From: Anisus vortex
Lineage: Eukaryota; Mollusca; Gastropoda; Planorbidae
Assembly: GCA_949126835.1 (NCBI GenBank)
Contig: OX421497.1
Span: forward strand, 26,515,612 to 26,579,611
Direction: 5' to 3'
Length of the DNA: 64,000 nucleotides
In this document: in pieces, positions 5,590 to 47,575 of the stretch
Layout: every line of letters begins with the position of its first letter
Numbering within the stretch: position 1 is the stretch's first letter
The notes under the pieces: model-generated
The model's database searches: none
Told to the model about the DNA's origin: nothing
Seen by the model: the letters and a program-made list of their open reading frames with translations, nothing else
Program-made: the position numbers and the translations under genes

Positions 5590-5990
5590 TCATTACATAA
5601 GCTCCTTCTATAAAGAATATTATTGAAATTATTGCGTCATACGCACGTCCATGGTTTGAGTTTAGTCCTGCATTTCTATTAATACTGGTTTTCCTGGTTT
5701 GTTCAGGCAACCCATTCCATGCCCGGATGCCACTCGGGATGAAAAAGTACTTGTGTGCGTTTGTTATCGTATAAGCATAAGGGATAAGGAAAGTGTCTTT
5801 GTCCTTATGTTTATCTGAGCATCGTAACAGATTGTTTTTGAGTTGTATTTCTAAATTTGAGTTAAATGCCTTATGTATTAATACTACTTTACTCTTTGTC
5901 CTTCTGTCCTCTAGTGTTTCTAGGCTTAGTGATTTAACTATTGGTGTTACTCTTGTCAGTTGTAAATATTCACTAGTAATGTAGGCCCTA
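5590..5990 (-). mobile_element. LINE (non-LTR retrotransposon) ORF2 C-terminal remnant
   Basis: The minus strand translates as a typical non-LTR reverse-transcriptase C-terminus: SLETLEDRRTKSKVVLIHKA, later HKYFFIPSGIRAWNGLPEQT. This is the family pattern of an 'LE.RR.K..L...K' segment followed by 'HKY.FFP...R.WN.LP'. About 100 codons stay open, then the end decays. The 3' part is shared with fragments inside both arms of the giant inverted repeat (22385-22545 and 32229-32389). Confidence 0.75.
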
Positions 5991-7030: not shown

Positions 7031-7310
7031 AAGCGAACCGTTGGAGCTGGTCAGGGTCAGTATATGTTCTTTACATTTCTTCGCTGCTCTTCCAGCCTAT
7101 TCGATAGGGCGAAGTCTGCCCTCTGCAGCAGATGGCTTATACCCCGTATCTGCCGCTTTGCGTGTTTTGCCGACGCTAAATAGCAAAGCTGGAGAGTCAT
7201 CTCCAAAGCCTGTGCGTTGTGATAAGGAGAGGCTGATGTTGCCCATGCATTAATTCCCCTCTCTCCACGCATCAAATGTAGACAAGGAGACGGCGTAGTC
7301 AATACAGCTT
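7030..7310. repeat. GC-richer repeat-like segment, unclassified
   Basis: Base composition rises sharply relative to both flanks. Open frames exist on both strands (minus strand about 7057-7302), but neither shows a domain I recognise. It shares an exact 21-bp stretch with 3543-3563. It is probably an old dispersed element. Confidence 0.3.
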
Positions 7311-11610: not shown

Positions 11611-12362
11611 TTTCACCTTTGCAATTTGACTTCGCACATGCGTCCTCACTAGCGCAAGAATAACGTATCCGACTGCCATGCGGAAGGCCCGGGTTCGATT
11701 TACCAGTTAGTCTATAGGCCTACCTTTTTTTCTTTCTAATTTTTTTTCAATTAATATTACTTACAAAAAAAAAACACCATTGTAAATCCACGTGCAACAC
11801 CAGGCACTGTAGCTATTTTTAAATTAAAAGACTTGCCTATTTTTAATCCGATTGCAATGTTTATTTTAAATAACTACCGTAAATGTCTTCAGTAAATTTT
11901 TTTTTTTTTTAAATTATTAGATCTATAGCTTTCTGTCTATTGTAGTTAATACAATATTTATCTTTAGCATTTACAGGCCTGTTTTAATTTTCCTGGCGAA
12001 ACGCCGGGGAATTTAGCTTGTATTAAAAAAATTATATAAATAACCTATTATTTTTCATCCTTTTTAAAATTTGAAATTCTTACCTTTCAGCATTTATAAA
12101 ATTAAATACGTCTTACTTTCCAGTGTTTTCTAAATTACATCGTTTTATAGCTATCTTTGTTACAAATGTTAAATTGAATCTTTTTGTGTGTCTCAATATA
12201 GACAATATTCAAAGATGTGCTTCTAGGCAGAACTATATTTTATGCTTCTGAAATAAATTGTACTCACTGTTACATTTAAATGTGCTTCACCAATGAAATT
12301 GTTTATAGCTAAAATCAATATATAAAGTTATTTTAATATTTCTACTTCCAGACAAATTCAAA

Positions 12363-15300: not shown

Positions 15301-17427
15301 GTCCACAGGCTGCTGTTGATTCACAAACAATGTATACAATATCCATAAATCAGCTAAAATAAAATATCTTGGTGTATGTTTAGATGAAACAAAGAGCAAA
15401 TAAAAAACAAATGTAAATATACAATATGGAATCAACAAAGATTAAAAAGTTTCAGAAATATTCTTTAAAAAGTGGCATGTGAGACATTAGGCCTATATGT
15501 AGGCGTAATAATCTCTCATCTAGACTTCGCGAACTGTCTATACATTGGACTGCCAGAGTGTGATTTGAAAAAAACTACAAAGGGTCCAAAATATGGCTGC
15601 GAAAATTGTTCAGAACAATAAAGACAACTCAACAATCTGTCTAAGAAAAACTGCACTGGCTACCTAAAACACTAAGGATAAAAGTCAAAGTTTTGTCAAT
15701 GCTCTATAAAAGCCTTCATGATCAATCTCCACAGTACATGAGATCCATGGTCGAGCTACACACATCAGAGAAAAGGGGACTGCGTTCAAACAAAATCCAT
15801 CTACAGCTCAAGATACCAAGTGTAAAAAGAGAAACATTTGAAGCTCGCTCCTACAGCGTCGTAGCACCTCTGTGGTGGAATGAACTTCCGAACACAATTA
15901 AACAAGCTGACAATATGGACACTTTTAAAATGAAATTAAAGACACACTTTTTCGATTTATTTTAATAACATAGGTAAATGTAAAGCGCATTCGAAGAATA
16001 AGTTATGAAAAGCGCTATATCAATATGTCATTTGTTTTGTGACTTTAAAAGATGACCTTTTAATGTCAGCCTACGTCATGATTTTCTTGCAGTTCCATTC
16101 CAATGATTTAAATATGGAACTATTCAGCCATTACATGCTTCCTTATCAATCCCACCCACACATTTTTCTGGTTTAAAGGTGTGGTTGGAGAAATTCTCGC
16201 ATTATTTGCAGATAATTTTTGTTTTTGTTTCAGTTAGTTTATAACTTAATGGACACACAAAAGAAAGAAAAAACTTTTAAGTTTTCAATTGATGTCAATA
16301 TTTTCTTTCGGTTCATTTTTAGTATTAGAAAAAGTATATTTACAAAAGACTAAATATCGAAATAATAGAATGAAAAGCACCAGATTGTAAGTATTTTCTT
16401 TTGATGGCTTCTGCAATTTCAGACTTGATTAAAAGTTTCACTGTGAATGGAGCATCCAACACGATTGTGGTTGAAGGTGACGAGGTGTTTTTCCAGTGCA
16501 ACAAAAAGGATGGCGTACCTAATCTATCGTGGGCAATACAGGCACCGTATTCAGGTATTCACCGTATTCAGGTACTCACCGTATTCAGGTATTCACCGTA
16601 TTCAGGTATTCACCGTATTCAGGTATTCACCGTATTCAGGTATTCACCGTATTCAGGTATTCACCGTATTCAGGTATTCGCCGTATTCAGGTATTCACCG
16701 TATTCAGGTATTCACCGTATTCAGGTATTCACCGTATTCAGGTATTCACCGTATTCAGGTATTCACCGTATTCAGGTATTCACCGTATTCAGGTATTCAC
16801 CGTATTCAGGTATTCACCGTATTCAGGTATTCACCGTATTCAGGTATTCACCGTATTCAGGTATTCACCGTATTCAGGTATTCACCGTATTAAGGTATTC
16901 ACCGTATTCAGGTATTCGCCGTATTCAGGTATTCACCGTATTCAGGTATTCGCCGTATTCAGGTATTCACCGTATTCAGGTATTCACCGTATTAAGGTAT
17001 TCACCGTATTCAGGTAGAACTAAACAGAAATAAAAGTAATGAACTGCACTCGTCGAGTGTAGCCAAGCCCCGCCCAACCCCCTCCCACTCAAGCTTTTCG
17101 ATTGCATTTTGACCTTTATTAAAAGTCGCAAACAGTGTAGACTAATACAATTTTACAGATTCAAGTTGTCCTATATGTTGTCCTGTTCGGTGGACTAGAG
17201 CAACTGACAGCCACGGCGCTGTTCATTACAACTATCGGACTTTTTGTCTGAATCCTCCCAATCATAATATTAATTTTGAGAACGAAGAAGAAGAAGAAGA
17301 AGTCATATATTTAATGTTTCTTCGTTTTACTCAAAGAACAACTTGGCTTCCAAAAACTTTACTAAATTTAGTGACAGTGTTTTCTGAAAGGTGTCCCAGA
17401 GTAAAACACAATTCCGATGTGTTTTGA
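12363..17427 (+). CDS. Secreted Ig-domain protein, spliced gene model (incomplete or degenerate)
   Basis: Gene model with consistent phase-1 junctions. 5'UTR exon 11272-11330 (donor GTATAT). Exon 2 12352-12429, ATG at 12363, encodes a signal peptide ending LMLSIYIGLTT. Microexon 15052-15075 encodes DPVSCIAG. Exon 4 starts at 16423 and encodes an Ig-like first half with VVEGDEVFFQCNKKDG and LSWAIQA (Cys then Trp, as in strands B and C). Candidate exon 5 17159-17427 has a TTTTACAG acceptor and stays open in the predicted phase to a TGA. The Ig exon runs into a 17-bp minisatellite at 16544-17016, so its true donor is ambiguous. Molluscan secreted Ig proteins of this shape (FREP-like and relatives) act in haemolymph defence. 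That role is inference: I see no fibrinogen domain here. Intron 2 holds a 2.1-kb minisatellite and intron 3 a LINE remnant, so it may be a decaying copy. Confidence 0.5.
12675..14825 (+). repeat. 24-bp minisatellite in an intron (~2.15 kb)
   Basis: About 90 tandem copies of a 24-bp unit (GAATTACATAG, ATGGAAGT, AAAGA). Variants recur: a 23-bp form with GTAAGAGAAT, a GTAACGAGAAT form, ATAGGTGG for ATAGATGG, and a GACATAGGATGAAGT form. The variants recur in blocks, suggesting multi-unit duplication. It lies between the signal-peptide exon and the microexon of the Ig-domain gene. Confidence 0.95.
15330..16030 (+). mobile_element. LINE ORF2 3' fragment (dead)
   Basis: Begins with the reverse-transcriptase motif YLGVCLD at about 15368. 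It continues through a frame-broken 'SHLDFANCLYIGLPE' region to a 90-codon open stretch (15693-15965): SMLYKSLHDQSPQYM, then GLRSN, then FEARSYSVVAPLWWNELPN and FKMKLKTHFF. This is the canonical non-LTR C-terminus. The 3'UTR holds two AAGCGC blocks and ends AAAAGCGCTATATCAAT. It sits in an intron of the Ig-domain gene. Confidence 0.85.
16544..17016 (+). repeat. 17-bp coding-frame minisatellite over a splice donor
   Basis: 28 tandem copies of ACCGTATTCAGGTATTC with few variants (two copies have TAAGG for CAGGT). None of the three plus-strand frames has a stop. Because 17 is not a multiple of 3, all frames give the same 17-residue periodic peptide in rotation. 26 copies contain CAG|GTA, a good donor-like sequence, at the expected 3' end of the Ig exon. 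Confidence 0.95.
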
Positions 17428-20066: not shown

Positions 20067-20072
20067 GACAGG
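20067..20072. repeat. 6-bp target-site duplication, left copy (GACAGG)
   Basis: GACAGG directly abuts the outer end of the left inverted arm. The same hexamer in direct orientation abuts the outer end of the right arm at 34700-34705. This is the expected footprint of a transposition event with a 6-bp staggered cut. Confidence 0.75.
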
Positions 20073-20099
20073 AGTAGTATATTAAGTCACATTTAGGTC

Positions 20100-20300
20100 G
20101 CATTCCCCCGCTCATTCCCCCGCTCCCCCGCTCCCCCGCTCATTCCCCCGCTCCCCCGCTCATGCCCCCGCTCCCCCGCCCCCTCCCCCGCTCATTCCCC
20201 CGCTCCCCCACCTTCTCTCCCCACCCCCACCCATTCCCCGCTCCCCCACCTTCTCTCCCCACCCCCACCCATTCCCCCGCTCCCCCGCCCCCTCTAAGGG
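20100..20300. repeat. G-run-rich terminus of left arm (C-rich on + strand)
   Basis: Irregular tandem array of CCCCCGCT and CATTCCCCCGCTC units starting about 30 bp inside the element. The minus strand carries dozens of G-runs of 4-5 at short spacing, so it has strong G-quadruplex potential. Confidence 0.85.
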
Positions 20301-20333
20301 TAAGGAGGGTTGTGACGTCAGCCCCCGCTCCCC

Positions 20334-20598
20334 CTCCCGACATGTAGCACACGTGACATTTCGTGACCTCCCCCTCTCGACACATGTTTATTTTTTTTTC
20401 CGTTCTCTCCCCCCTCCCTACCCCTGTAATGTCAACTATCCATGGGTAAGGTTGGGTAAGGTTGGGTAAAGCATTTTTTACCCACCCCCTCAGCATTTTT
20501 ACCCACCCCCTAGCGACATGTGGCATGACCTCCCCCTCTCGACACGTGTTTATTGTTTTTTTTTCCCGTTCTCTCCCCCCTCCCTACCCCTGTAATGT
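20334..20598. repeat. Subterminal duplicated block (left arm)
   Basis: Two diverged copies (about 20334-20425 and 20512-20598) share GACATGT, ACCTCCCCCTCTCGACAC, TGTTTATT and CCCTCCCTACCCCTGTAATG. A decamer GGGTAAGGTT is repeated between them (about 20445-20470). The mirror copy is at about 34174-34438. It is a candidate protein-binding subterminal region. Confidence 0.6.
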
Positions 20599-21269
20599 AT
20601 AGTTAAAAATATACTTATGTATGTAAAAGAGATGACCCACATCAGCAATACATGAACAATGACATGTGTTCAGTACATTTTTAAATAGTTTTTTTCCCCT
20701 TAGTAATTTAGTTATCTTTATATTTATGTATGTAAAAGAGATGTAGGCTATCGAACTTTTAGTTTCGGCTTGTCGTCCTAGGTTATTGAACTTTTGCCCT
20801 GGCTTGTACATACTTAAAACACCAACACTGGCTCAATAATGTATAATTAATTAGATGAAAAGATTCATCCTCTCGACATCCTTCCTCCCCACACCCACCA
20901 TACATTCACCCCACCCACTCGATCAATAATAATTTGAATGTATAATGTCGCATATGTTTACAGCTAAACTCAAGCCCACATCTATAATTAAGATGTAATT
21001 TCGGATTATTGATCTTTTGCCTCTCGTGCAAAACAACTCGAAAAGTCCCCTCTTACTTCTAAAAACAGGTGTTGTTTTCTAAATATATAATTGATTTGAG
21101 CAATAAACTCAACTGCAGATCAATAGAATATTCACATTTTGTCACTCTTCACACACATTCATATATATACACACACACACACACGTATCTCACACACACA
21201 CACACTCATTTCTTTTTCCCCTATACAGACATCTGTTTATGGTTTATCTATGCACTGTCGGTTATTTAC

Positions 21270-21442
21270 CTTTTTTTGTACTATCATTTTCTTTTCTTCC
21301 ATTCAGACATATCTATGCAGTGTAGTTATTAACCTTTTTTTTTGTACTATCATTTTCTTTTCTTCCATTCAGACATATCTATGCAGTGTAGTTATTAACC
21401 TTTTTTGTACTATCATTTTCTTTTCTTCCATTCAGACAGCTG
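21270..21442. repeat. ~60-bp tandem repeat x3 (left arm)
   Basis: Three copies of a unit with TGTACTATCATTTTCTTTTC, TTCCATTCAGACA and ATGCAGTGTAGTTATTAACC. A fourth copy recurs at about 21935-22000. The mirror is at about 33330-33502. Confidence 0.85.
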
Positions 21443-21801
21443 TTTAATTCAATCCTCCCACCCAATCGATAATGCCAACATTTCACTTACTATTTTCACG
21501 TTTTCCCAAAGGCTATAGTAGTATTGCTGCCATTTTGTCACCACTAGACAAAGTAAACAAACAGCACGCCCGCTATAATTATTTTAAGCGCTTTAGTATT
21601 CTTTTATAGTTCTTAATAAAGGGTACCATTAAAATATTTTAGAACCAGTGTATTCACATTTCATTCATACCTACAGCCTAACCACTGGATCAATAATAAT
21701 TTGAATGTATAATGTCACATGTGTTTATATAGTAGAATATTCACATTTTGTCACTCTTCACACACACATACACACACACATACACACACACAATATTTGT
21801 A

Positions 21802-21802
<1 letters not shown>

Positions 21803-21834
<32 letters not shown>
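21803..21834. repeat. (CA)16 microsatellite, the only arm-to-arm difference found
   Basis: 16 CA units here against 15 at the mirror position (32940-32969). This accounts for the entire 2-bp length difference between the arms. Confidence 0.9.
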
Positions 21835-21835
<1 letters not shown>

Positions 21836-22065
21836 TTCCATACAGATATCTGTTTATTTACCCAATCGATAAACATACAGACATCTGTTTATTTCAAACA
21901 TCCCAACCCAATCAATAAACTATTGTACTGGTTTATCTATGCAGTGTAGTTATTAACCTTTTTTGTACTATCATTTTCTTTTCTTCCATTCAGACATCTG
22001 TTTAATTCAATCCTCCCACCCAATCGATAATGCCAACATTTCACTTACTATTTTCACGTTTTCCC

Positions 22066-22320
22066 TACACACACACACACATACATACAGACAATCACAT
22101 TTACAAACGCACACACACACACACATACAGACAATCACATTTACAAACGCACACACACACACATACATACAGACAATCACATTTACAAACGCACGCACAT
22201 ACATACAGACAATCACATTTACAAACGCACACACACACACAGTATTTTTATCTCTCACACACACACATACAGACAATCACATTTACAAACGCACACACAC
22301 ATACATACAGACACTCACAT
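22066..22320. repeat. CA-rich minisatellite, ~40-bp unit (left arm)
   Basis: About six copies of a unit made of a CA run, ATACAGACAATCACATTTAC and AAACGC. The mirror is at about 32454-32708. The Thr/His-rich and Val/Cys-rich frames here are repeat products. Confidence 0.9.
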
Positions 22321-22384
22321 TACTCATACTGGCATACAAATACGCACACAGGCCCGTCAGACCATATTTACATTGTCACAGCTG

Positions 22385-22545
22385 TCTCTCTGCAAACGCT
22401 CCTTCTATAAAGAAACTTATTGCTTCCTACGTTCATCCGTGGTCCAAGGCCAGTCTAGTTGCATTTTTTTATTAATGTTTTAAATTATGTTACTGGTTTG
22501 TTCAGGCAACCCATTCCATATGAACCTTGCAGCTCGTTTTATTTT
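22385..22545 (-). mobile_element. LINE 3' scrap (left arm)
   Basis: The minus strand reads RAARFIWNGLPEQT, the same retrotransposon C-terminus as at 5590-5990. The two copies share TGTTCAGGCAACCCATTCCA and a CTCCTTCTATAAAGAA end. The mirror copy is at 32229-32389 on the plus strand. Confidence 0.65.
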
Positions 22546-23461
22546 TTTTTGTAATTTTTTTGTTTAATGTTTTCGTAAAAGTATTCAGGCAATTTTAAAA
22601 TTTTAATAGTTAACACATGCATCAGTCTAAACTAAAATATTCAACGTGTCTCTGATGGCATCCTTTTTAACTTTCTGTTATACAGAAGTCATAGTCATAG
22701 TCCCATGGTTCTTTTAGGAACACGTGGTATCCAATATGGCGGAAGGGATGTATCCAAGGGGAGTAATCGTGTAATTATTATTTTTTGTCATTATTACCAT
22801 TGTATTTTTTTTTCTTTTTGTTGTAGTAAGACAGGGTTAAGCATTTTTATTCTAAACTTAAAATGTTTCAGCTATTAGTATATATATTACGAGCTCTAAA
22901 TTTTCACATAATAGTGAAGGGTGATATTCTTTTATAGAATTATTATACACTAATGCAATTTTGTTTTCTCTTTTTGATATTATAAGACATGTAAATCTTG
23001 AGTAATTTTTAATTTTAACTTTAAGAGTTCGCATGTTATTTTCTTTACGATTGCACTAGATGTATAAACTTTTATATACTGTATTTAATCAAGTAATTAT
23101 TTTCTTTAGCACAATTAAGGGAGCCAGAAATATTGAATAGATTAAAATCAAGGGTAGCAATCGTGTAATTAGTTGTTTTAATTTTTGTAAAATTTATATT
23201 AATCTTGTCTTAAGTTAATGGATTTTCAGGGCGATTTGCAGCTCGTTGTTTTCAACTAAAGAGTTACCAGATAGTAGATACGCTTCTAGAATCTTCAACA
23301 TATATTGATACACATCTGTCGAGCTTTATGAATAGTCATAATAACTGGGTGAGTAACAGGTTCACAATAGTAACAAGACAGTCTTTGTTAAACAAAAAAT
23401 CACCATATACACAGTTAAATATAAAAGAGTATATTAAACTAGCTTCCATCTTTCTTTTCGT

Positions 23462-23640
23462 CACAGAGGTGTCCCTGAGTCTGCCCAGCTCTGATGGGTA
23501 CCTGACATTAGTTGGGGTAAAGTAAAGTCGGCTGGGCATTGTGCTGACCACACATCCCCTTTTATGCCGTGGCCACAGAAACTGGTGAACGCTGCTTCAC
23601 TAGCCCTATGATCAGGTTGGTCCGAAGGGTACTTTACTAA
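23462..23640 (+). mobile_element. Truncated SINE body (left arm)
   Basis: Matches the body of the SINEs at 45863 and 60943, from 'CCCAGCTCTGATGGGTACCT' through 'GTTGGGGTAAAGTAAAG' to 'AAGGGTACTTTACT'. The tRNA-like head is missing. It lies just 3' of the ICAD-like gene. The mirror is at 31134-31312 (minus). Confidence 0.85.
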
Positions 23641-23857
23641 GTCATGTTTTGTTTGTTATTATTATTGTAAACGTGTAACGTTAGTATGAAAACATGGGTG
23701 TCATTTATTTATTGCATTCAATTCATTAAAGAATAAAAGTGGGGAAAAAGAAATGTTTGTTTCCTTTGTCTTTATTTCATCTAGTACATCTAAGTCCAAT
23801 GTTTTCATTGCCCTAGTATGTATAAAATAGTTGTAATTTTAAAGTTATTTTGAAATA

Positions 23858-25035
23858 TTAAGTTAACCCAATAGATTCGTTGTAAAAACAAATAAGCTCC
23901 AGAAGATCTTTTACGTCTGCTTGCTCATCAATTAGGCGCTGACAAGATTCTTGCAGAGATATGATGACTTTCGTAGACCTACCAAGTATCTGAGCTAGCC
24001 CTTCAGTATCCGCTTCCACAAGTTGCTAGATAAGACATTGAAAATAAAAATTATATTTATTATTTATTTATTTTGTCTATACCTGCAAGATGTAATAATT
24101 TGGTAGTATCTTACATGCATTTCATCTTCATTCAATAATACAACACAAGCGAGGTCTACTTTGATTTTCTCAATGACTGAAGATAAATCACAGTCTTTAC
24201 GGCCACATTCTAATACAGCGCCATCTGGGTGATCGTAACTCGTAATGGCTACACAGGGAAAAAATAATGGAAAATTGAATTTTTTACTGTATCATGACTA
24301 CACTGTGGGTTTCTGTGATCTAGCTACATGACTTTAGGTGACCAAGACTATCATGGCTTTAGGTTGACCTCACCCAAGACTATTAAAACTGTTAGGGAAA
24401 TATTTTTTTAAAATTTTTTTTTCTCCCAAGAGTCCAGAGGGAAGAGTTTACAATGCTATCACTCGCATTTAAGCAGGGGAAGTAATTGGGAAAGTAAAGG
24501 TGTTGAGGCGCTTTGCTGACCACACTATCCCCACATTAATGTAAAGGATTTAAAATATAAAAATAATCTACATATTGTAAAAGTAGATTGGATGGATACT
24601 TTAAACAAAACAATTTTGACTTTGACTTTAAAACATAAAAAATCGATAGAAAATATATTAAACTACACCTACAAGAGTGTGGAGGCATCCATTCGCTTCG
24701 ACCGGGTAGCAACATGAACACTGTGTTGTCTGGCAAGAAGGAGAAATATTCCTCATCAATTTCTGTTCCATCCTCTGCAAGAACGACTGTGACAGGAGGA
24801 TCAATTTGGAGTTTTTCACAACCTTCAAACGTAAAAAACAACAAATACCAAACAACAACAAACAAACAAAACAACAAGAATAAAATAATTGATAGCTTTT
24901 AATTTACTTTATTTATTTATTTTTTATTTTTTTACCTTTGTTTTTAAGCTCTTGAAATGATGAGACAGTAAATCCTTTTGTGACAATTCTTTCTTTATCC
25001 CAGACTTTAAACGGTCTATACTTAGGTTCACACAT
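23858..25035 (-). CDS. ICAD/DFF45-like protein, left-arm copy (4 exons)
   Basis: Mirror image of the right-arm gene. Exons on the minus strand: 25035-24936, 24822-24673, 24248-24115, 24025-23858. It encodes the same 183-aa product: CIDE-N domain (residues about 7-76), linker with DHPD|G (89-93), DFF45 middle domain (about 98-175). All splice sites and the stop are intact. ICAD/DFF45 is the inhibitor and folding chaperone of the apoptotic nuclease CAD/DFF40. The product lacks the C-terminal nuclease-binding domain and nuclear-localisation tail of full-length DFF45 (331 aa in human), so it resembles a short isoform. See the right-arm entry for details. Confidence 0.85.
24473..24540 (+). mobile_element. 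SINE-body scrap inside ICAD-like intron (left arm)
   Basis: GGGAAAGTAAAGGTGTTGAG followed by CTGACCACACTATCCCCACA resembles the middle of the SINE body (GTAAAGTAAAGGCGGCTGGG and onward). The mirror is at 30234-30301. Confidence 0.5.
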
Positions 25036-25099
25036 TTTTAAAAAATGTGATAATCCTTTAAAAATAAATATAAAAATAGTCAAACTTGGTTACCTACCC

Positions 25100-25118
25100 T
25101 TGCCAATAATATTGGCAA
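25100..25118. promoter_or_regulatory. Inverted CCAAT palindrome upstream of left ICAD-like gene
   Basis: TTGCCAAT and ATTGGCAA arms separated by 3 nt, about 70 bp upstream of the ATG. The two opposed CCAAT motifs could bind NF-Y or NF1-like factors. Function is inference. The mirror is at 29656-29674. Confidence 0.35.
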
Positions 25119-25440
25119 TATAATATTTGTTGACTACGCCTAGTTTTCTTTTTATCGGTCCCTCTTTCTAACTCCCACTCTATCAAATCTTATAGAACTA
25201 CAAACTCTTATCTTCAACTCCCTTGTCAGCTGTTACATTCGCATTATTTGTGCCTCATTTCTTTATTATAGCTCCAGATCGTTCTCACTACTATCTTTCT
25301 CACCCAAAACTGTTAGTTACTCTACTTTCAATAATGTTCCCTCTCTACAACGTGCGTCAGACATACATTGTTTTTCTGCCTAGAAAGTTTTTTAGTACAC
25401 TTGTCTATGGACACCTTTTTTTTTTCTCCAACTCTCTTGT

Positions 25441-26252
25441 TATTTTTTTCTCCCTCTCGAAAAAAAGTCTCCCTCTCGAAAAGAAATATTTCCTTCCAAT
25501 AAGGAAATAGAGACCGGCTTGTAATTTTTTTTCTCCCTCTTCGAAAAAAAAAGTCTCCCTCTTGAAAAGAAATATTTCCTTCCACGAAGGAAATAGAGAC
25601 CGGCTTGTAATTTTTTTTCTCCCTCTTCGAAAAAAAAGTCTCCCTCTCGAAAAAATTTCTTCCCTGGCATCCTTCTTTCTCCAATCATCTTGTAATTTTT
25701 TTTCTCCCTCTTCGAAAAAAAAGTCTCCCTCTCGAAAAAATTTCTTCCCTGGCATCCTTCTTTCTCCAATCATCTTGTAATTTTTTTCTCCCTCTTCGAA
25801 AAAAAAGTCTCCCTCTCGAAAAAATTTCTTCCCTGGCATCCTTCTTTCTCCAATCATCTTGTAATTTTTTTTCTCCCTCTTCGAAAAAAAAGTCTCCCTC
25901 TCGAAAAAATTTCTTCCCTGGCATCCTTCTTTCTCCAATCATCTTGTAATTTTTTTCTCCCTCTTCGAAAAAAAAGTCTCCCTCTCGAAAAAATTTCTTC
26001 CCTGGCATCCTTCTTTCTCCAATCATCTTGTAATTTTTTTCTCCCTCTTCGAAAAAAAAGTCTCCCTCTTCGAAAAAAAGTCTCCCTCTCGAAAAAATTT
26101 CTTCCCTGGCATCCTTCTTTCTCCAATCATCTTGTAATTTTTTTCTCCCTCTTCGAAAAAAAAGTCTCCCTCTCGAAAAAATGTCTTCCCTGGCACCCTT
26201 CTTTCTCCAATCATCTTGTAATTTTTTTCTCTCTCTCTTCGAAAAAATGGTC
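25441..26252. repeat. ~84-bp minisatellite (left arm, inner end)
   Basis: About nine tandem copies of a unit containing TCTCCCTCTTCGAAAAAAAA, GTCTCCCTCTCGAAAAAA and TTCTTCCCTGGCATCCTTC. Three minus-strand frames are open across it and give Lys/Arg/Glu/Phe-rich 28-residue repeats. It lies upstream of the ICAD-like gene and ends about 170 bp from the spacer. The mirror is at 28522-29333. Confidence 0.95.
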
Positions 26253-26422
26253 TTCCCTGCCATGTCTTTATAACAGGCAAATCGTTTAGCATATCTACAC
26301 TCCTAACTCTAAAACGGTGTGTACATTACACGTCACCAAGGTTTTTGCAAGTAACGTTCTTTAGAGATATCAAAGGCCAAGTTGTAAACCTAAAGTTATC
26401 CCGACTGACCCTCATGTGAATT

Positions 26423-28351
26423 GGGGAAAAGTAAGGCATAAAAAAAAAAAATTAGTTTTATCTAGTTTGGGGTTGATAGTATTGTAAAGAGCTTTGTAAA
26501 TCGCTAAAATTAGTTTGAAGGAATTGTGATAAGTTTTAGGATGTGTATTTATGATTATAATAAATTACTACTATAAATTGGATAAGGCAGAAAAAAGCAC
26601 TAGTCTTAGACTGAAATGTGTGGTGTTTTAAATGTGTTTTGTATAGTCTTATCCCTAAAAGTATTCTAAGGGTTTTTCAGTCATGCAAATTGCATTATGT
26701 ATGGTGTGGTTTATCTGGTGGTGGTAATATTTATTTTGTCAAGAGATTTTTTTATTGTAAAAGTTAGACATCGTTCATGGTACGAATAAAATAAGTGTGA
26801 TGTTAAAAAGTGTTGATGATATGTATTTTGTAAAGATGGTGTTTTGTAAATGGCAGAAATAGTCTAAGGCCAAACAAGTGATCGGAGTTCGAGCGTGAAG
26901 TTGTGTAGGGTTGTTTCTCCTATTACTAGGGTTGAAAGCCCCTTTGAACTTAGGAAGAGGAAATTCTAGATACACGTTTATCGAGGAAACAAAGAATAGG
27001 TCTAAATTTTTGTCTATCTTGTAAATGTATTCATTGAAACACAAGATTACCTATAAAGATAGTTATATAAGGATAAGTCTCTAGGAACTCTATGTCCTGG
27101 GGAGAAAGTCTGAAACAATAAGTGTTGTATCAACTGGTGAATGGTAGTATATGTTACAAAGGTTCTGACAACTATTAATAAATGTTGGTAATTAAAGGTT
27201 CCATAGCTAGTTTGGTAATATTCTGTAAACTTTATAACAGTGAAAGTTAGGGAGAGATATGGGAGGGTTTTCTTCAAACTGACACCTGGGTCAGTTGGAG
27301 AAAAGGGAGAAGCTGAAAGTAATTAGTTTGATCTTGTGTGGAGGTGATAGTGATGAGTTACAAGTATAGGGAGGTAATGAAAAGTCTGTGAAAAGTCATT
27401 AGAAGGCATATTTTTAAGTCGTAGGAGGTATTTGGCATGGGTAATGCCACATCCCTAGTATTAGACTTTTGAAAGGTGTTATTGAAATGTGTGTGTTTTT
27501 TAAAAAGCTTTTGTTGTGGTATGAGTCAAGCAAGATTGTCTAATGTTATACTAGTGTTGGGATAGGGTTATACATAAAGTTGGAGTGTCAGATATATTTC
27601 ATGACATGACTAGGGGCATACAAATGTTAAGTTATACTTATTTGATGAAGATATGCTATGTGTTTTTGTAAAGTTAGTGTTTTGGACAGGGCTATCTATA
27701 AAGGTATTCTAAAGGTTTGAGCCACGCAACATTGCCTAAGTGGGAAGGTATACTTGGGTGTTGTCGATATGTGTTTTGTAAAGTTAGTGTTTTGAACAGG
27801 GCTATTTATAAATGTAGACTATCAGAATAAAAGTATTCTAATGGTTTGAGTCAAGCAAGATTGCCCTAGTGGGAAGGTGATGTAGCTATGTGTTTTGTAA
27901 AGTTGGTGTTTTGAACAGGGCTATATCAGAAATCTTTCGTGACACGAGACAAGCAAGATTACCTAAGTGGTAAGATATACTTGGGTGTTGTAGATATGTG
28001 TTTTGGGTTGTGTTTTGGCTATGTTCGCTAATAGTAAAAAATCTTTCGTGGTATGACTGTAGTCATACGGGGCTGTTTAACCTATTACTAGAGTTGAAAG
28101 TCTTAGTGAACTAAGGAAAATGAAATGTAGAGCTATCTTAAAACAACTATACCTACTTGATATGTATTTTGATTTGAGAAGTCCTGAGACGGTAGTAAGA
28201 GTGCTAAGGCTTTTATAGGGTATTGAGTGGTCATATGTGTTCCAAAGGTTTTGACCACTACTATTAAATGTCGGTTTGGTAATTAAAGTTTTCCATAGCT
28301 AGTTTAGTAATATTTGGTAAACTTTACATAGTGATAGATAGGGAAAGGAAA
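26423..28351. other. Spacer between the inverted arms: C-poor, internally repeated, no gene
   Basis: 1,929 bp of unique spacer, G/T-rich and C-poor on the plus strand. It contains diverged direct repeats. A ~120-bp unit with TATGTGTTTTGTAAAGTTAG, TGTTTTG, ACAGGGCTAT and GCAAGATT recurs about four times at 27650-28010. A larger block around 26920-27250 recurs at about 28080-28345, sharing CTATTACTAG(G/A)GTTGAAAG and CCATAGCTAGTTT. No frame above 90 codons shows a domain. It is not similar to the arms. Confidence 0.8.
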
Positions 28352-28521
28352 AATTCACATGAGGGTCAGTCGGGATAACTTTAGGTTTACAACTTGGCCT
28401 TTGATATCTCTAAAGAACGTTACTTGCAAAAACCTTGGTGACGTGTAATGTACACACCGTTTTAGAGTTAGGAGTGTAGATATGCTAAACGATTTGCCTG
28501 TTATAAAGACATGGCAGGGAA

Positions 28522-29333
28522 GACCATTTTTTCGAAGAGAGAGAGAAAAAAATTACAAGATGATTGGAGAAAGAAGGGTGCCAGGGAAGACATTTTTTCG
28601 AGAGGGAGACTTTTTTTTCGAAGAGGGAGAAAAAAATTACAAGATGATTGGAGAAAGAAGGATGCCAGGGAAGAAATTTTTTCGAGAGGGAGACTTTTTT
28701 TCGAAGAGGGAGACTTTTTTTTCGAAGAGGGAGAAAAAAATTACAAGATGATTGGAGAAAGAAGGATGCCAGGGAAGAAATTTTTTCGAGAGGGAGACTT
28801 TTTTTTCGAAGAGGGAGAAAAAAATTACAAGATGATTGGAGAAAGAAGGATGCCAGGGAAGAAATTTTTTCGAGAGGGAGACTTTTTTTTCGAAGAGGGA
28901 GAAAAAAAATTACAAGATGATTGGAGAAAGAAGGATGCCAGGGAAGAAATTTTTTCGAGAGGGAGACTTTTTTTTCGAAGAGGGAGAAAAAAATTACAAG
29001 ATGATTGGAGAAAGAAGGATGCCAGGGAAGAAATTTTTTCGAGAGGGAGACTTTTTTTTCGAAGAGGGAGAAAAAAAATTACAAGATGATTGGAGAAAGA
29101 AGGATGCCAGGGAAGAAATTTTTTCGAGAGGGAGACTTTTTTTTCGAAGAGGGAGAAAAAAAATTACAAGCCGGTCTCTATTTCCTTCGTGGAAGGAAAT
29201 ATTTCTTTTCAAGAGGGAGACTTTTTTTTTCGAAGAGGGAGAAAAAAAATTACAAGCCGGTCTCTATTTCCTTATTGGAAGGAAATATTTCTTTTCGAGA
29301 GGGAGACTTTTTTTCGAGAGGGAGAAAAAAATA
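28522..29333. repeat. ~84-bp minisatellite (right arm, inner end)
   Basis: Mirror of 25441-26252, with the same copy number and variant order, including one unit with a duplicated TTCGAAGAGGGAGACTTTTT segment near 28697-28730. Confidence 0.95.
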
Positions 29334-29655
29334 ACAAGAGAGTTGGAGAAAAAAAAAAGGTGTCCATAGACAAGTGTACTAAAAAACTTTCTAGGCAGAA
29401 AAACAATGTATGTCTGACGCACGTTGTAGAGAGGGAACATTATTGAAAGTAGAGTAACTAACAGTTTTGGGTGAGAAAGATAGTAGTGAGAACGATCTGG
29501 AGCTATAATAAAGAAATGAGGCACAAATAATGCGAATGTAACAGCTGACAAGGGAGTTGAAGATAAGAGTTTGTAGTTCTATAAGATTTGATAGAGTGGG
29601 AGTTAGAAAGAGGGACCGATAAAAAGAAAACTAGGCGTAGTCAACAAATATTATA

Positions 29656-29674
29656 TTGCCAATATTATTGGCAA
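29656..29674. promoter_or_regulatory. Inverted CCAAT palindrome upstream of right ICAD-like gene
   Basis: TTGCCAATATTATTGGCAA: opposed CCAAT motifs 65-83 bp upstream of the ATG at 29739. No clear TATA box is visible, so this is the only promoter-like element I can point to. Confidence 0.35.
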
Positions 29675-29738
29675 GGGTAGGTAACCAAGTTTGACTATTT
29701 TTATATTTATTTTTAAAGGATTATCACATTTTTTAAAA

Positions 29739-30916
29739 ATGTGTGAACCTAAGTATAGACCGTTTAAAGTCTGGGATAAAGAAAGAATTGTCACAAAAGG
29801 ATTTACTGTCTCATCATTTCAAGAGCTTAAAAACAAAGGTAAAAAAATAAAAAATAAATAAATAAAGTAAATTAAAAGCTATCAATTATTTTATTCTTGT
29901 TGTTTTGTTTGTTTGTTGTTGTTTGGTATTTGTTGTTTTTTACGTTTGAAGGTTGTGAAAAACTCCAAATTGATCCTCCTGTCACAGTCGTTCTTGCAGA
30001 GGATGGAACAGAAATTGATGAGGAATATTTCTCCTTCTTGCCAGACAACACAGTGTTCATGTTGCTACCCGGTCGAAGCGAATGGATGCCTCCACACTCT
30101 TGTAGGTGTAGTTTAATATATTTTCTATCGATTTTTTATGTTTTAAAGTCAAAGTCAAAATTGTTTTGTTTAAAGTATCCATCCAATCTACTTTTACAAT
30201 ATGTAGATTATTTTTATATTTTAAATCCTTTACATTAATGTGGGGATAGTGTGGTCAGCAAAGCGCCTCAACACCTTTACTTTCCCAATTACTTCCCCTG
30301 CTTAAATGCGAGTGATAGCATTGTAAACTCTTCCCTCTGGACTCTTGGGAGAAAAAAAAATTTTAAAAAAATATTTCCCTAACAGTTTTAATAGTCTTGG
30401 GTGAGGTCAACCTAAAGCCATGATAGTCTTGGTCACCTAAAGTCATGTAGCTAGATCACAGAAACCCACAGTGTAGTCATGATACAGTAAAAAATTCAAT
30501 TTTCCATTATTTTTTCCCTGTGTAGCCATTACGAGTTACGATCACCCAGATGGCGCTGTATTAGAATGTGGCCGTAAAGACTGTGATTTATCTTCAGTCA
30601 TTGAGAAAATCAAAGTAGACCTCGCTTGTGTTGTATTATTGAATGAAGATGAAATGCATGTAAGATACTACCAAATTATTACATCTTGCAGGTATAGACA
30701 AAATAAATAAATAATAAATATAATTTTTATTTTCAATGTCTTATCTAGCAACTTGTGGAAGCGGATACTGAAGGGCTAGCTCAGATACTTGGTAGGTCTA
30801 CGAAAGTCATCATATCTCTGCAAGAATCTTGTCAGCGCCTAATTGATGAGCAAGCAGACGTAAAAGATCTTCTGGAGCTTATTTGTTTTTACAACGAATC
30901 TATTGGGTTAACTTAA
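29739..30916 (+). CDS. ICAD/DFF45-like protein, right-arm copy (4 exons)
   Basis: Exons 29739-29838, 29952-30101, 30526-30659 and 30749-30916 join through GT-AG introns in phases 1, 1 and 0 and give 183 aa. Residues about 7-76 form a CIDE-N domain (RPFKVWDKERIVTKGF, later VTVVLAEDGTEIDEEYFSFL and PDNTVFMLL), the module by which ICAD and CAD pair. Residues about 98-175 match the DFF45 middle domain (DLSSVIEKIKVDLACVVLLN, then DEMHQLVEADTEGLAQIL and LQESCQRLIDEQ). The linker contains DHPD|G at 89-93, a DXXD-G effector-caspase pattern placed like the first cleavage site of vertebrate ICAD. Known family role: chaperone and inhibitor of caspase-activated DNase, released when caspases cut ICAD. The 183-aa length lacks the C-terminal domain. 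The ATG is the only Met upstream of the domain. An intact twin sits in the other arm. Retained introns show it was captured as genomic DNA, not by retroposition. Confidence 0.88.
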
Positions 30917-31133
30917 TATTTCAAAATAACTTTAAAATTACAACTATTTTATACATACTAGGGCAATGAAAACATTGGACTTAGATGTACTAGATGAAAT
31001 AAAGACAAAGGAAACAAACATTTCTTTTTCCCCACTTTTATTCTTTAATGAATTGAATGCAATAAATAAATGACACCCATGTTTTCATACTAACGTTACA
31101 CGTTTACAATAATAATAACAAACAAAACATGAC

Positions 31134-31312
31134 TTAGTAAAGTACCCTTCGGACCAACCTGATCATAGGGCTAGTGAAGCAGCGTTCACCAGTTTCTGTG
31201 GCCACGGCATAAAAGGGGATGTGTGGTCAGCACAATGCCCAGCCGACTTTACTTTACCCCAACTAATGTCAGGTACCCATCAGAGCTGGGCAGACTCAGG
31301 GACACCTCTGTG
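31134..31312 (-). mobile_element. Truncated SINE body (right arm)
   Basis: Mirror of 23462-23640, the same headless SINE fragment just downstream of the ICAD-like stop codon. Confidence 0.85.
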
Positions 31313-32228
31313 ACGAAAAGAAAGATGGAAGCTAGTTTAATATACTCTTTTATATTTAACTGTGTATATGGTGATTTTTTGTTTAACAAAGACTGTCTTG
31401 TTACTATTGTGAACCTGTTACTCACCCAGTTATTATGACTATTCATAAAGCTCGACAGATGTGTATCAATATATGTTGAAGATTCTAGAAGCGTATCTAC
31501 TATCTGGTAACTCTTTAGTTGAAAACAACGAGCTGCAAATCGCCCTGAAAATCCATTAACTTAAGACAAGATTAATATAAATTTTACAAAAATTAAAACA
31601 ACTAATTACACGATTGCTACCCTTGATTTTAATCTATTCAATATTTCTGGCTCCCTTAATTGTGCTAAAGAAAATAATTACTTGATTAAATACAGTATAT
31701 AAAAGTTTATACATCTAGTGCAATCGTAAAGAAAATAACATGCGAACTCTTAAAGTTAAAATTAAAAATTACTCAAGATTTACATGTCTTATAATATCAA
31801 AAAGAGAAAACAAAATTGCATTAGTGTATAATAATTCTATAAAAGAATATCACCCTTCACTATTATGTGAAAATTTAGAGCTCGTAATATATATACTAAT
31901 AGCTGAAACATTTTAAGTTTAGAATAAAAATGCTTAACCCTGTCTTACTACAACAAAAAGAAAAAAAAATACAATGGTAATAATGACAAAAAAAAATAAT
32001 TACACGATTACTCCCCTTGGATACATCCCTTCCGCCATATTGGATACCACGTGTTCCTAAAAGAACCATGGGACTATGACTATGACTTCTGTATAACAGA
32101 AAGTTAAAAAGGATGCCATCAGAGACACGTTGAATATTTTAGTTTAGACTGATGCATGTGTTAACTATTAAAATTTTAAAATTGCCTGAATACTTTTACG
32201 AAAACATTAAACAAAAAAATTACAAAAA

Positions 32229-32389
32229 AAAATAAAACGAGCTGCAAGGTTCATATGGAATGGGTTGCCTGAACAAACCAGTAACATAATTTAAAACATT
32301 AATAAAAAAATGCAACTAGACTGGCCTTGGACCACGGATGAACGTAGGAAGCAATAAGTTTCTTTATAGAAGGAGCGTTTGCAGAGAGA
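32229..32389 (+). mobile_element. LINE 3' scrap (right arm)
   Basis: Mirror of 22385-22545. The plus strand reads RAARFIWNGLPEQT and then decays. Confidence 0.65.
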
Positions 32390-32938
32390 CAGCTGTGACA
32401 ATGTAAATATGGTCTGACGGGCCTGTGTGCGTATTTGTATGCCAGTATGAGTAATGTGAGTGTCTGTATGTATGTGTGTGTGCGTTTGTAAATGTGATTG
32501 TCTGTATGTGTGTGTGTGAGAGATAAAAATACTGTGTGTGTGTGTGCGTTTGTAAATGTGATTGTCTGTATGTATGTGCGTGCGTTTGTAAATGTGATTG
32601 TCTGTATGTATGTGTGTGTGTGTGCGTTTGTAAATGTGATTGTCTGTATGTGTGTGTGTGTGTGCGTTTGTAAATGTGATTGTCTGTATGTATGTGTGTG
32701 TGTGTGTAGGGAAAACGTGAAAATAGTAAGTGAAATGTTGGCATTATCGATTGGGTGGGAGGATTGAATTAAACAGATGTCTGAATGGAAGAAAAGAAAA
32801 TGATAGTACAAAAAAGGTTAATAACTACACTGCATAGATAAACCAGTACAATAGTTTATTGATTGGGTTGGGATGTTTGAAATAAACAGATGTCTGTATG
32901 TTTATCGATTGGGTAAATAAACAGATATCTGTATGGAA

Positions 32939-32970
<32 letters not shown>

Positions 32971-34471
32971 TACAAATATTGTGTGTGTGTATGTGTGTGT
33001 GTATGTGTGTGTGAAGAGTGACAAAATGTGAATATTCTACTATATAAACACATGTGACATTATACATTCAAATTATTATTGATCCAGTGGTTAGGCTGTA
33101 GGTATGAATGAAATGTGAATACACTGGTTCTAAAATATTTTAATGGTACCCTTTATTAAGAACTATAAAAGAATACTAAAGCGCTTAAAATAATTATAGC
33201 GGGCGTGCTGTTTGTTTACTTTGTCTAGTGGTGACAAAATGGCAGCAATACTACTATAGCCTTTGGGAAAACGTGAAAATAGTAAGTGAAATGTTGGCAT
33301 TATCGATTGGGTGGGAGGATTGAATTAAACAGCTGTCTGAATGGAAGAAAAGAAAATGATAGTACAAAAAAGGTTAATAACTACACTGCATAGATATGTC
33401 TGAATGGAAGAAAAGAAAATGATAGTACAAAAAAAAAGGTTAATAACTACACTGCATAGATATGTCTGAATGGAAGAAAAGAAAATGATAGTACAAAAAA
33501 AGGTAAATAACCGACAGTGCATAGATAAACCATAAACAGATGTCTGTATAGGGGAAAAAGAAATGAGTGTGTGTGTGTGTGAGATACGTGTGTGTGTGTG
33601 TGTATATATATGAATGTGTGTGAAGAGTGACAAAATGTGAATATTCTATTGATCTGCAGTTGAGTTTATTGCTCAAATCAATTATATATTTAGAAAACAA
33701 CACCTGTTTTTAGAAGTAAGAGGGGACTTTTCGAGTTGTTTTGCACGAGAGGCAAAAGATCAATAATCCGAAATTACATCTTAATTATAGATGTGGGCTT
33801 GAGTTTAGCTGTAAACATATGCGACATTATACATTCAAATTATTATTGATCGAGTGGGTGGGGTGAATGTATGGTGGGTGTGGGGAGGAAGGATGTCGAG
33901 AGGATGAATCTTTTCATCTAATTAATTATACATTATTGAGCCAGTGTTGGTGTTTTAAGTATGTACAAGCCAGGGCAAAAGTTCAATAACCTAGGACGAC
34001 AAGCCGAAACTAAAAGTTCGATAGCCTACATCTCTTTTACATACATAAATATAAAGATAACTAAATTACTAAGGGGAAAAAAACTATTTAAAAATGTACT
34101 GAACACATGTCATTGTTCATGTATTGCTGATGTGGGTCATCTCTTTTACATACATAAGTATATTTTTAACTATACATTACAGGGGTAGGGAGGGGGGAGA
34201 GAACGGGAAAAAAAAACAATAAACACGTGTCGAGAGGGGGAGGTCATGCCACATGTCGCTAGGGGGTGGGTAAAAATGCTGAGGGGGTGGGTAAAAAATG
34301 CTTTACCCAACCTTACCCAACCTTACCCATGGATAGTTGACATTACAGGGGTAGGGAGGGGGGAGAGAACGGAAAAAAAAATAAACATGTGTCGAGAGGG
34401 GGAGGTCACGAAATGTCACGTGTGCTACATGTCGGGAGGGGGAGCGGGGGCTGACGTCACAACCCTCCTTA

Positions 34472-34672
34472 CCCTTAGAGGGGGCGGGGGAGCGGGGGAA
34501 TGGGTGGGGGTGGGGAGAGAAGGTGGGGGAGCGGGGAATGGGTGGGGGTGGGGAGAGAAGGTGGGGGAGCGGGGGAATGAGCGGGGGAGGGGGCGGGGGA
34601 GCGGGGGCATGAGCGGGGGAGCGGGGGAATGAGCGGGGGAGCGGGGGAGCGGGGGAATGAGCGGGGGAATGC
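34472..34672. repeat. G-run-rich terminus of right arm (G-rich on + strand)
   Basis: Mirror copy of the left terminus: GGGGGAGC and GGGGGAATGAGC units, ending about 30 bp from the outer end. Confidence 0.85.
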
Positions 34673-34699
34673 GACCTAAATGTGACTTAATATACTACT

Positions 34700-34705
34700 G
34701 ACAGG
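34700..34705. repeat. 6-bp target-site duplication, right copy (GACAGG)
   Basis: Exact direct repeat of 20067-20072, directly abutting the outer end of the right arm. Confidence 0.75.
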
Positions 34706-38368: not shown

Positions 38369-41300
38369 TTAGCAACAAGACGGTCTGCAAGTGAAATATA
38401 TCGTATCTCGAGATGTAAAATGCCGACGATATAAACACGGAAACTTATTATCTTTCCCATGCTCTAAAAGTCTAAATATGATAACAAAACTAGATCTAAT
38501 ATTGATAATATTCTATATTAATTGATATATTATTTCGACTCAGTGTATACTTGAATTAATACAATAAACATACATTTAATCAAGTTAAACAACGTGATAT
38601 ATCAGCTTACTAATAACAATAATGTATTATTTACACTTACTGTACAATGCTGGCAAAGTGTATATAATCGGATTCAAAGCAGAGTTTATAGGTAATACAA
38701 AAACGGCAACCCAAGCGTACACCTCACGGTCAAAGATATGGCCCTGAATTGAAAGAATTCCAAGTATTCCCACAGGAAACCAGCAGCAGAAATCTGTTAA
38801 AGCAACAAAAGCCAGTTTTTTTGCCACAGTCAGTTCTTCAGATCTTCTTTGTGGATTTTGACTGATACCTTCTATCGATTTCTTATTTTTTCTCAAGTTT
38901 ACAAATATAGTCACTTGACCAATTGCTATTAACAAAAATAAGATAGAATTTAGACCAATAAAGACAGTGAATGAAAATATCCATCCTTTGAAATGTTTGG
39001 AACTAAACGGTAGAGGCAGACACAAACCATTAGAGGAATAAATCTCCCAATCTAAAAAGACTGCTGGGAGTATGGCCAATACAAAACTAAGAATCCAGAC
39101 CATTGAAAATGATAATAGTTTACCAGTTTTAGAAAATCTATGTTCACCAAATGGGTAAGTTATAATTAAATAACGATCCACAGTAATCAAACAAATAAAA
39201 AAGATTGAAGCTTCACTAGAAAATGTTGAAAGAAATCCCAAGAAATGACACGGGATACCTTTCCTCCAGTTATAATCTTTTAATACATAGACTTCTGAGT
39301 AGTGTTTGTCAATGAAAGCAATAACTAGAAGATAAATTCCCATTGTCAAATCAGATATTGCCAAACCCGTTATAAAATATCCATATGCTTTCGTTAGAAT
39401 ACTCCTATTCCAACCAATTCTGTAAACCAATACTAAACTATTTCCCAGTATGGTTGATATAACAACTATCCAGATAACAATTCTCTTGAGCATGTCACCA
39501 ACAAGATATTTACAGGAAGAGATCAGATCAGCCGGAGCATGACATTTTTCAACATCAATGTTGGAGTTTAAAACTAGTGGACAACACATTACATAGTCGC
39601 TGGCACGTATTTCCAAATGAATGGTTAAACCTCTGAAAAAGTCAGTTTCTATGTTCTTAGTAAAAATACCTTCAATATCCAAAGTGTGAAGTTTAAAGTA
39701 TTTAGGAATCCCCATGTCGTGAAAGTTATTAATTAATGTGTAGCTTAAGTTTAAATGTTTCAAATATTTCAAACCTTGAAAAGCGCCATGTTTCAATGCA
39801 GAAATTGTTGTGTAAGACAAGTCAATTAATTCTAAAGAACTTGGAAATGAAAACTTTGCATCTATTGTAAAGTTTTCGTTGTATGAAAGGTTTAAGTATT
39901 TCAATTTTGTTAATTTGCTTATCGATAATAGATTATCACTGTGAACTATATTATTTTTACTCAGATCAAGTATTATAAGCTCATCCAGTGTCCAGTATTG
40001 AAACGCTTTGTCAAAATCCCGTATCTGTGGCCAACAAGCGCTTCCGTAAAATGCGACTAAAGTAATAAACGGCAAACACTTGTTAAAGTCTTCACTGGGA
40101 TAAAAAACATTTTCTATGTTATTGAAATGATCATTTTCAATGTTAAATAAATGCACCGTGGTCTCTTGGCTTGTCATATTATTACCAATTTTGGCATTTG
40201 ATTTGCTCGACAGACAATTGTAGTTTGCAGGACAAACCTTGTTGCAAACAAAGTCTTTCTCATCAATTAACCTAAAAAGTGTACGGAACAACTTTGAATG
40301 AATACATATTTCCCGCAAGAGAAAAATAAATTTGTCAAAAAGGATAACATCATTAAGGATATTTTCTTCTATATCAAGCCGAAGATCTTCACCTAAAGGA
40401 CAATCAACTTGTTTATCGTTCAGCATGGAAGGATCAATACAATAGGAGCTGGGACATTTCACAAGAGGCTTTGGGCAGATAAATTGTTCACAATAAAGTA
40501 AATTGATATTATCCTCACATTGATGTTCAGGAATTCTATCTTTAAAACATTTATAAGTGTTCTTGTTGTCTTGTGTTTCACATTCAACACGTTTAATAGT
40601 ATTTTTTAAATAAACACTGTATGCTGAGCAAGAATCATTTTCGTATGGGTCTTCAGTTTCAAGCTCACAGTAAATAGTTATATTTGTATCGCTGTTCATG
40701 TTATCTTTTTCATAGTCGACATTTTGTTGACAGGCATTATAGTTTTTGCAGAACTTTGGAATGTCCATATTTCGTAATGTGTAAAAGTTATCAAATTCTT
40801 TTGATAAAATATGAATCAATCTATTTTCGTCAGTAGTGAATTTATTTCCTACAGTATTCATGAAATCTTTACTACAAAAAAAAACCTTAAATTCATTAGG
40901 TGTAGTATTATTAACAAAGTTTTCACTGCAATGCTTATGATTTATAATTAAAGAATAACTTAAAGGTTTCATAAAGTCTTTTAATATTTTTGGTTTTGGA
41001 AAAAGGCTTGTGATAAAAAAAAATAAAAACTCACTTTCAATTATAGAGCTGTCTTCGTGTGAATTATATTTTTGAGGATTAGGAATCTTATACACATTTT
41101 GGCCAATTTTGTTTTCACAAACCACTAATGAATGTTGTAGTTTTTTACCACAGTTTATTCTTTCTATAAAGCTCCCTAATTTGTAAATATCTTTTACAAG
41201 TAACTCAAAAATTTCTTTTTTGTCTTCAGATAGGTTTATATAAAAACAGTCTTGCCATGAATGTGTAAACGGTTTAGAAAAAGAAAATGGATTCTGACTT

Positions 41301-47411: not shown

Positions 47412-47575
47412 TTTGGTTAAGCAGATATATATTTAAAAAAATTATAAGAGTTATATAAATTAAATGTATTTGTTTTTAATATCATTCTTTGCAACATTAA
47501 CTAGCATATTTTAAAATCGTCATGTCTTTTTTTTAATGGACAGACATATAACAAAACACAAGCATGAAAAACAAA

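Follow-up and report, generated by a model that had tools for sequence, protein, structure and literature searches.

A palindromic element with Polinton ends and a doubled ICAD-like gene in the genome of the snail Anisus vortex

The palindrome and its captured gene

The window analysed here is a stretch of 64,000 nucleotides from Anisus vortex (Gastropoda, Planorbidae; assembly GCA_949126835.1, contig OX421497.1, positions 26,515,612 to 26,579,611 of the forward strand). It contains an element of 14,627 bp (20073-34699, delimited by self-alignment) which consists almost entirely of one large palindrome with a copy of a captured gene in each half. The left arm of 6,350 bp (20073-26422, + strand) and the right arm of 6,348 bp (28352-34699, - strand) pair at 99.95% over 6,350 bp and make up 86.8% of the element; the pairing ends at 26423/28351, on either side of a spacer, or loop, of 1,929 bp (26423-28351). 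A first-pass annotation of the same DNA had described 6.35-kb arms amounting to 87% of the element, a sharp stop of the pairing at 26422/28352 and a single CA dinucleotide as the only difference between the arms. This description is accurate except in its last point, since besides a 2-bp CA indel (21833/32939) the arms also differ by one substitution (22780/31994). The outer junctions are as exact as had been reported, with a perfect 6-bp target-site duplication (TSD), GACAGG, adjoining both ends of the element (20067-20072 and 34700-34705) according to self-alignment and end reading. The element begins and ends with AG...CT terminal inverted repeats (TIRs), AGTAGTATATTAAG...CTTAATATACTACT, of which about 300 bp are common to coding copies described below.

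The captured gene, present once per arm and thus twice per element, has four exons separated by GT-AG introns and encodes 183 amino acids. In the right arm (+ strand) exon 1 with the ATG start and a GT donor occupies 29739-29838, exon 2 (AG...GT) with the remainder of the CIDE-N domain 29952-30101, exon 3 (AG...GT) 30526-30659, and exon 4, into which the DFF-C match runs on and which ends with the stop codon, 30749-30916. The left copy lies on the - strand at 23858-25035, coordinates deduced by mirroring the right one. Both domains of the protein score above their cut-offs (CIDE-N, E 3.6e-26; DFF-C, E 8.3e-9), making it ICAD/DFFA-like. Twelve solved structures match, the best being human CIDE-B and the CIDE-N domain of ICAD being among them, and a single database relative was found, a DFFA-like protein of the hagfish Myxine glutinosa (31%). 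Since the gene keeps its introns, it appears to have been acquired as DNA and not from an mRNA. A DFF-C search of the genome for a host donor gene was empty, as it was in every control genome, so that this search has no power. At C16:15107173 (here and below, copies and sites are labelled by contig number, with a letter where needed, as in C14a and C14b) there is a CIDE-N exon which looks like a host one and does not match the captured gene at the DNA level.

We have aligned 20 copies of the gene, that of the window included. They were chosen non-randomly: among 29 other sequences tried, one had no DNA match and nine were left out (four lacking the 3′ part, three partial or disrupted in exon 1, two old relics). 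Frame and splice sites are intact in 16 of the 20 copies, the others having lost the exon 2 acceptor (two copies) or acquired a stop codon or a frameshift (one each). Variable sites are less frequent in exons (28/552) than in introns (53/626, p = 0.028), while neither the changes shared between copies (S5/N9, synonymous and non-synonymous) nor those confined to one copy (S4/N10) depart significantly from neutral expectation; any selection on the captured gene is thus suggestive only. A pooled pN/pS of 0.66, obtained from an alignment that included four of the left-out sequences, was dropped for misalignment. Four palindromes (C16, C1b, C11b and C15) lack exons 3 and 4 and are nevertheless inserted with TSDs.

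A genome-wide family sharing its ends with coding Polintons

Searches covered the 863-Mb genome in 159 contigs. With 341 bases of the left end as query, the best 40 of 108 candidates scored revealed paired copies at many other places. A 25-bp end pattern allowing up to two mismatches occurs at 69 sites (36 forward and 33 reverse; a backward control gave 0), of which 64 pair face to face as 32 complete elements and five stand single. These 32 comprise 28 elements of 11.7-20.5 kb (median 14.0 kb) with a mirrored CIDE-N pair, three coding Polintons and one miniature. The latter (C6:17020271-17022619, 2.35 kb) has the same ends, arms of about 0.8 kb (96% with gaps) and the TSD TATGTA on both sides, and also shows longer matches to the window arm at 94-98%.

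The CIDE-N exon gives a lower bound for the family, the best 150 of 281 candidates having been scored: at least 145 matches were found, 134 of which form 67 outward-pointing mirrored pairs with 11 left over. Four neighbouring CIDE-N pairs less than 15 kb apart have another orientation. A search with the spacer (best 40 of 211 candidates scored) returned 44 rows, including four short pieces of the same elements that were set aside. All of the 40 rows checked lie between the paired CIDE-N exons of a mirrored pair, 39 of them no more than about 310 bp from its centre, the remaining one 3.5 kb away. Because all matches checked share the same spacer, the palindrome probably arose once. The orientation of the spacer (inverted in C14b; 28 + and 12 - among the 40 matches) was discarded as uninformative, since an oppositely inserted palindrome looks identical. 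Arm lengths were 5.2-6.35 kb in all eight palindromes aligned. Two mirrored pairs (C12:2970022-2990550 and C18:25466575-25478260) have unusually wide centres, with about 11 kb between the CIDE-N exons, which may represent extra cargo or nested insertions. At C4:43009942-43019976 three CIDE-N exons about 4.95 kb apart lie on the same strand, unlike the mirrored pairs elsewhere.

Both ends were read in 18 full-length copies, and the 6-bp flanks are equal in all 18. The flank of C9, TATATA, lies inside a TA repeat and is uninformative; without it the count is 17 of 17 (15 palindromes, window included, and two coding copies), and all 17 TSDs differ from one another. We have also searched for empty sites with the joined flanks of eight palindromes, scoring the best 40 of 1,083 candidates. 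Junction-spanning matches appeared among these for C15 (12), C14a (5), C1b (7) and C2 (1), and paralogous empty sites for which a single TSD gives the best alignment were found for C15 (three examined of 12), C14a (three of five) and C1b (one of seven).

One of the coding copies, C4, is 15,092 bp long with TIRs of about 300 bp. A frame of 1,492 amino acids combines C2H2 fingers with a match to the PolB family PF03175, and further frames encode an integrase (rve plus chromo), an A32/IVa2-like ATPase and an adenovirus-type protease (Peptidase_C5); we refer to the two ends of such a copy as the PolB-side and the protease-side end. Three additional frames of 173, 258 and 448 amino acids have no match in Pfam and none to a family of known function in PHROGs (one weak match, to a family without known function), and the 448-residue frame has no match in the PDB. 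Two of these three may be structural proteins, which falls short of identifying capsid genes. Among the matches listed for the integrase (best 114 of 4,849 candidates scored), the frame is 100% identical in C4, C1a and C9 and 97-98% identical in four more (one with a stop, one partial), besides split fragments and other families of Polintons, about 86% and 76% identical. The other families contain many stop-free integrase frames, most of them about 76% identical to that of C4. The integrase has its best named relative in Littorina saxatilis (58%). Of seven places with a PF03175 match, three are in elements with these ends, three elsewhere and one on C5, about 7 kb away from an end match.

Copy C9 has TIRs of about 300 bp as well. 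At C9:17661990-17682274 it carries two stretches of about 2.6 kb that are extra relative to C4 (C9 positions 4647-7222 and 12052-14638), the first at the split of its PolB frame; these are possibly another transposon inserted twice. The third coding copy, C1a (15,123 bp), has TIRs of about 1.3 kb, this length of the PolB-side end being present at both ends. At the far end the PolB-side sequence joins protease-side sequence from position 1138 on, with a microhomology of at most a few bases at the junction. In this structure a copy of the PolB-side end takes the place of the protease-side end, which looks like a first step toward what is carried furthest in the palindromes.

The termini of the window element belong to these coding copies. 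Its left TIR (arm positions 1-302; 20073-20374, + strand) is 99.7% identical to the PolB-side end of C9, and arm positions 1-310 are 99.4% identical to the protease-side end of C4; compared with both ends of C4 and C9 the arm start gives 98.7-99.7%. The right TIR occupies 34398-34699 (- strand). Further inside, arm positions 704-930 (20776-21002, + strand) match positions 322-537 of the PolB-side end at 90.3%, and this subterminal sequence is mirrored at 33770-33996 (- strand). The 6-bp TSD and the 5′-AG start, taken by the first-pass annotation as a hint at Polintons, thus proved the right lead. Its remark that no transposase is visible holds for the window copy: none of the seven C4 frames, PolB, rve integrase, ATPase and protease included, is found in the element (tblastn, E 1e-3; each frame finds itself), and ten further frames of arm and spacer have no Pfam match. 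It does not hold for the family, in which coding copies with the same ends exist.

Arms that change together, and the reading they favour

Within a copy the arms differ by 0.016-0.174% substitutions and 0-5 gaps (all eight palindromes aligned in full), compared with 0.67% between C14a and C14b and 1.0-3.7% between C15 and the rest. In the outer 1.25 kb of 15 palindromes, the partner right arm is strictly the nearest sequence to the left arm in 13 and ties in one. Larger changes are also present on both arms. The same 646 bp are absent from both arms of C16 and C1b, which are located at different sites; about 1.5 kb are absent from both arms of C15; and at C4:4133046-4138156 each side has the CIDE-N exon twice. 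The termini behave in the same way: either arm of C14a and C14b carries positions 1-531 of the PolB-side end (98-99%), and C15 has the protease-side end on both (99%; positions 1-1047 in the left arm, 52-1047 in the right one, and a 20-bp indel close to the tip). Since double-arm changes are shared by copies at different sites, the changed palindromes moved with both arms already altered.

The shared ends, the TSDs, the empty sites of three copies, the coding copies with the same ends and the concert of the arms are matters of observation. They lead us to a reading, to which we give a probability of about 0.82, of the window element as a non-autonomous palindromic Polinton (Maverick) which relies for its mobilisation in trans on coding Polintons with the same ends elsewhere in this genome. 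Dependence on a helper, the replication step and any packaging are what we infer from them.

The closest competitor accepts the same Polinton derivative and ascribes the likeness of the arms to chromosomal gene conversion after insertion, as in the palindromes of sex chromosomes. Inverted repeats of 6 kb separated by about 2 kb are expected to undergo conversion, and the differences between the arms of C15 are partly resolved. However, C16 and C1b share one double-arm deletion, and C14a and C14b one type of terminus on both arms, while in each case the two copies lie at different sites with different TSDs, and we therefore consider conversion after insertion an unlikely account. Far less probable is a new type of fold-back element, as the first-pass annotation had suggested, in this version with its own, unrelated transposase. 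The seven C4 frames without a match in the window element and the ten arm and spacer frames without a Pfam match would agree with it, but it is contradicted by the terminus of about 300 bp, at 99%, and the TSD length which the element has in common with coding Polintons of the same genome. Known fold-back elements (FB of Drosophila, TU of sea urchins, Galileo) share with it long inverted arms, internal tandem repeats and little coding capacity, but have other TSD lengths and other transposases; the window element is set apart from them by its 6-bp TSD and Polinton termini. Finally, long palindromes are classic misassemblies, but at least 67 mirrored gene pairs, 32 complete elements, 17 different informative TSDs in 17 copies and single-TSD empty sites for three of them leave an assembly fold-back, which yields neither TSDs nor unlike left and right flanks, with next to no probability. 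The description as a non-autonomous transposon with giant arms and a 6-bp TSD is borne out by the self-alignment and the 18 of 18 equal flanks, and further copies of the termini next to different TSDs, which had been proposed as a check, exist in the family with its 69 end sites and 17 informative TSDs.

Several observations weigh against a helper-dependent palindromic Polinton. Helper dependence is deduced from the shared ends only, and mobilisation, a replication intermediate or a virion have not been observed. Beyond the termini and the 227 bp of subterminal sequence, no stretch of the window arm longer than 150 bp matches C4 or C9, which leaves a Polinton origin of the arm body hypothetical. 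Five young copies (window, C2, C16, C1b and C17) carry no information on concert, since substitutions between them (0.02-0.22%) are as few as those within a copy; the left arm of C1b is closer in its outer 1.25 kb to C16 than to its own partner; and C15 retains a 521-bp indel and several smaller ones between its arms. The empty site with a single TSD anticipated by the first-pass annotation was found for three of the eight palindromes searched and not for the window copy, which like C16, C17 and C14b has no junction-spanning match among the best 40 of 1,083 candidates. The candidate empty site of C2 was rejected because an alignment without the TSD scores better.

Elsewhere in the window there are three tandem arrays: a 12.65-kb minisatellite of 17 bp at 47573-60225 (about 744 copies, 96% match), 28 copies of a 17-bp unit at 16543-17016 and 91 copies of a 24-bp unit at 12661-14826. 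An intronless frame of 1,127 amino acids (38627-42010, - strand) encodes leucine-rich repeats and a rhodopsin-type seven-transmembrane domain of a G-protein-coupled receptor, with two weak partial relatives only in a protein search, and a frame of 425 amino acids (396-1673, - strand) has a SCAN match below the curated cut-off.

Known relatives and a model for the palindrome

The window element resembles Polintons (Mavericks; polintovirus or adintovirus-like elements) by its 5′-AGTAGT...ACTACT-3′ ends, its TIRs, its 6-bp TSD and the presence of coding copies with the same ends. Vertebrate Mavericks have (AGT)2//(ACT)2 end motifs and 6-bp TSDs, and the TIRs of intact ones are given as 46-1,447 bp with a mean of 402 (PMC8097293). 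It differs by its 6.35-kb arms and in that no Polinton gene was found, and we file it as a non-autonomous relative and not as a Polinton proper, because the PolB, integrase, ATPase and protease frames of C4 have no match in it. Long terminal repeats as such are not unprecedented, since cryptophyte Polinton-like viruses have TIRs of hundreds to thousands of bp (survey filter 100 bp-8 kb; PMC12220804). The Tlr elements of Tetrahymena were once proposed to be a non-autonomous Polinton derivative, which PMC4028283 disputes by placing the Tlr capsid protein outside those of Polintons; the idea of a dependent derivative is common to both cases, and the passages of that paper on Tlr mention no palindrome.

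Defective adenovirus genomes with duplicated ends derive from a protein-primed linear replicon, have the same end at both termini and form panhandles from displaced strands; they are not known to be integrated or to form an inherited family with TSDs. Poxviruses have another type of telomere and of replication, with hairpin ends. In the poxvirus MVA-CR19 a terminal duplication has enlarged the inverted terminal repeat from 10 to 27 kb (PMC11680203). As in C1a, whose geometry is equal, an inverted copy of one end takes the place of the other, but no helper-dependent palindromic family is known to result. In the open literature searched, mostly titles, beginnings of abstracts and passages, no palindromic or ICAD-carrying Polinton derivative is described, which is no proof of absence. 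The palindromic form with its ICAD-like gene is probably a helper-dependent variant of the known Polinton group.

For replication Polintons encode a protein-primed polymerase of family B, and they also have an integrase of retroviral type (PMC6431247). The ends kept by the palindrome are where the replication and integration proteins of a Polinton should act. The palindrome probably originated from a copy-back event at a Polinton end, and a switch of template at an end would account for C1a. Once formed, it would be copied by the protein-primed PolB of the helper, and strand displacement would free a single strand whose arms could anneal into a panhandle of about 6.3 kb with the 1.9-kb spacer as loop. 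In the panhandle one arm could be corrected or re-copied from the other, so that one end would give rise to both ends of a new copy, and priming could start again from the restored duplex ends. At a median of 14.0 kb the mirrored copies are nearly as long as C4 and C1a (15.1 kb), which would fit packaging but is only a correlation. The ICAD/DFFA-like gene, with two copies per element, may protect replicating DNA from the apoptotic nuclease CAD, a guess from homology.

A more far-reaching version, which we hold tentatively and with some doubt, is that of a palindromic satellite of an animal Polinton. It would be a defective genome of about helper length (15 kb), perhaps travelling in helper capsids, that renews both ends from one arm via the panhandle in each cycle, making the divergence of the arms a clock like that of long terminal repeats, while the doubled captured inhibitor of an apoptotic nuclease would keep the DNA of the element or the cell intact. 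If this is true, the family would preserve copy-back defective genomes as an inherited record.

Replication of Polintons presumably starts, as in adenoviruses, from protein-primed ends, a stage that is hard to see. The genome of A. vortex contains what amounts to a frozen series, with coding copies having repeats of about 300 bp, C1a with an overwritten end and dozens of mirrored copies, those aligned being nearly complete palindromes whose arms change together. End-copying in Polintons thereby becomes testable from sequence, and the comparison of arm with arm provides a dating tool. The family is also a case of a Polinton-ended element spreading an ICAD-like gene through a genome.

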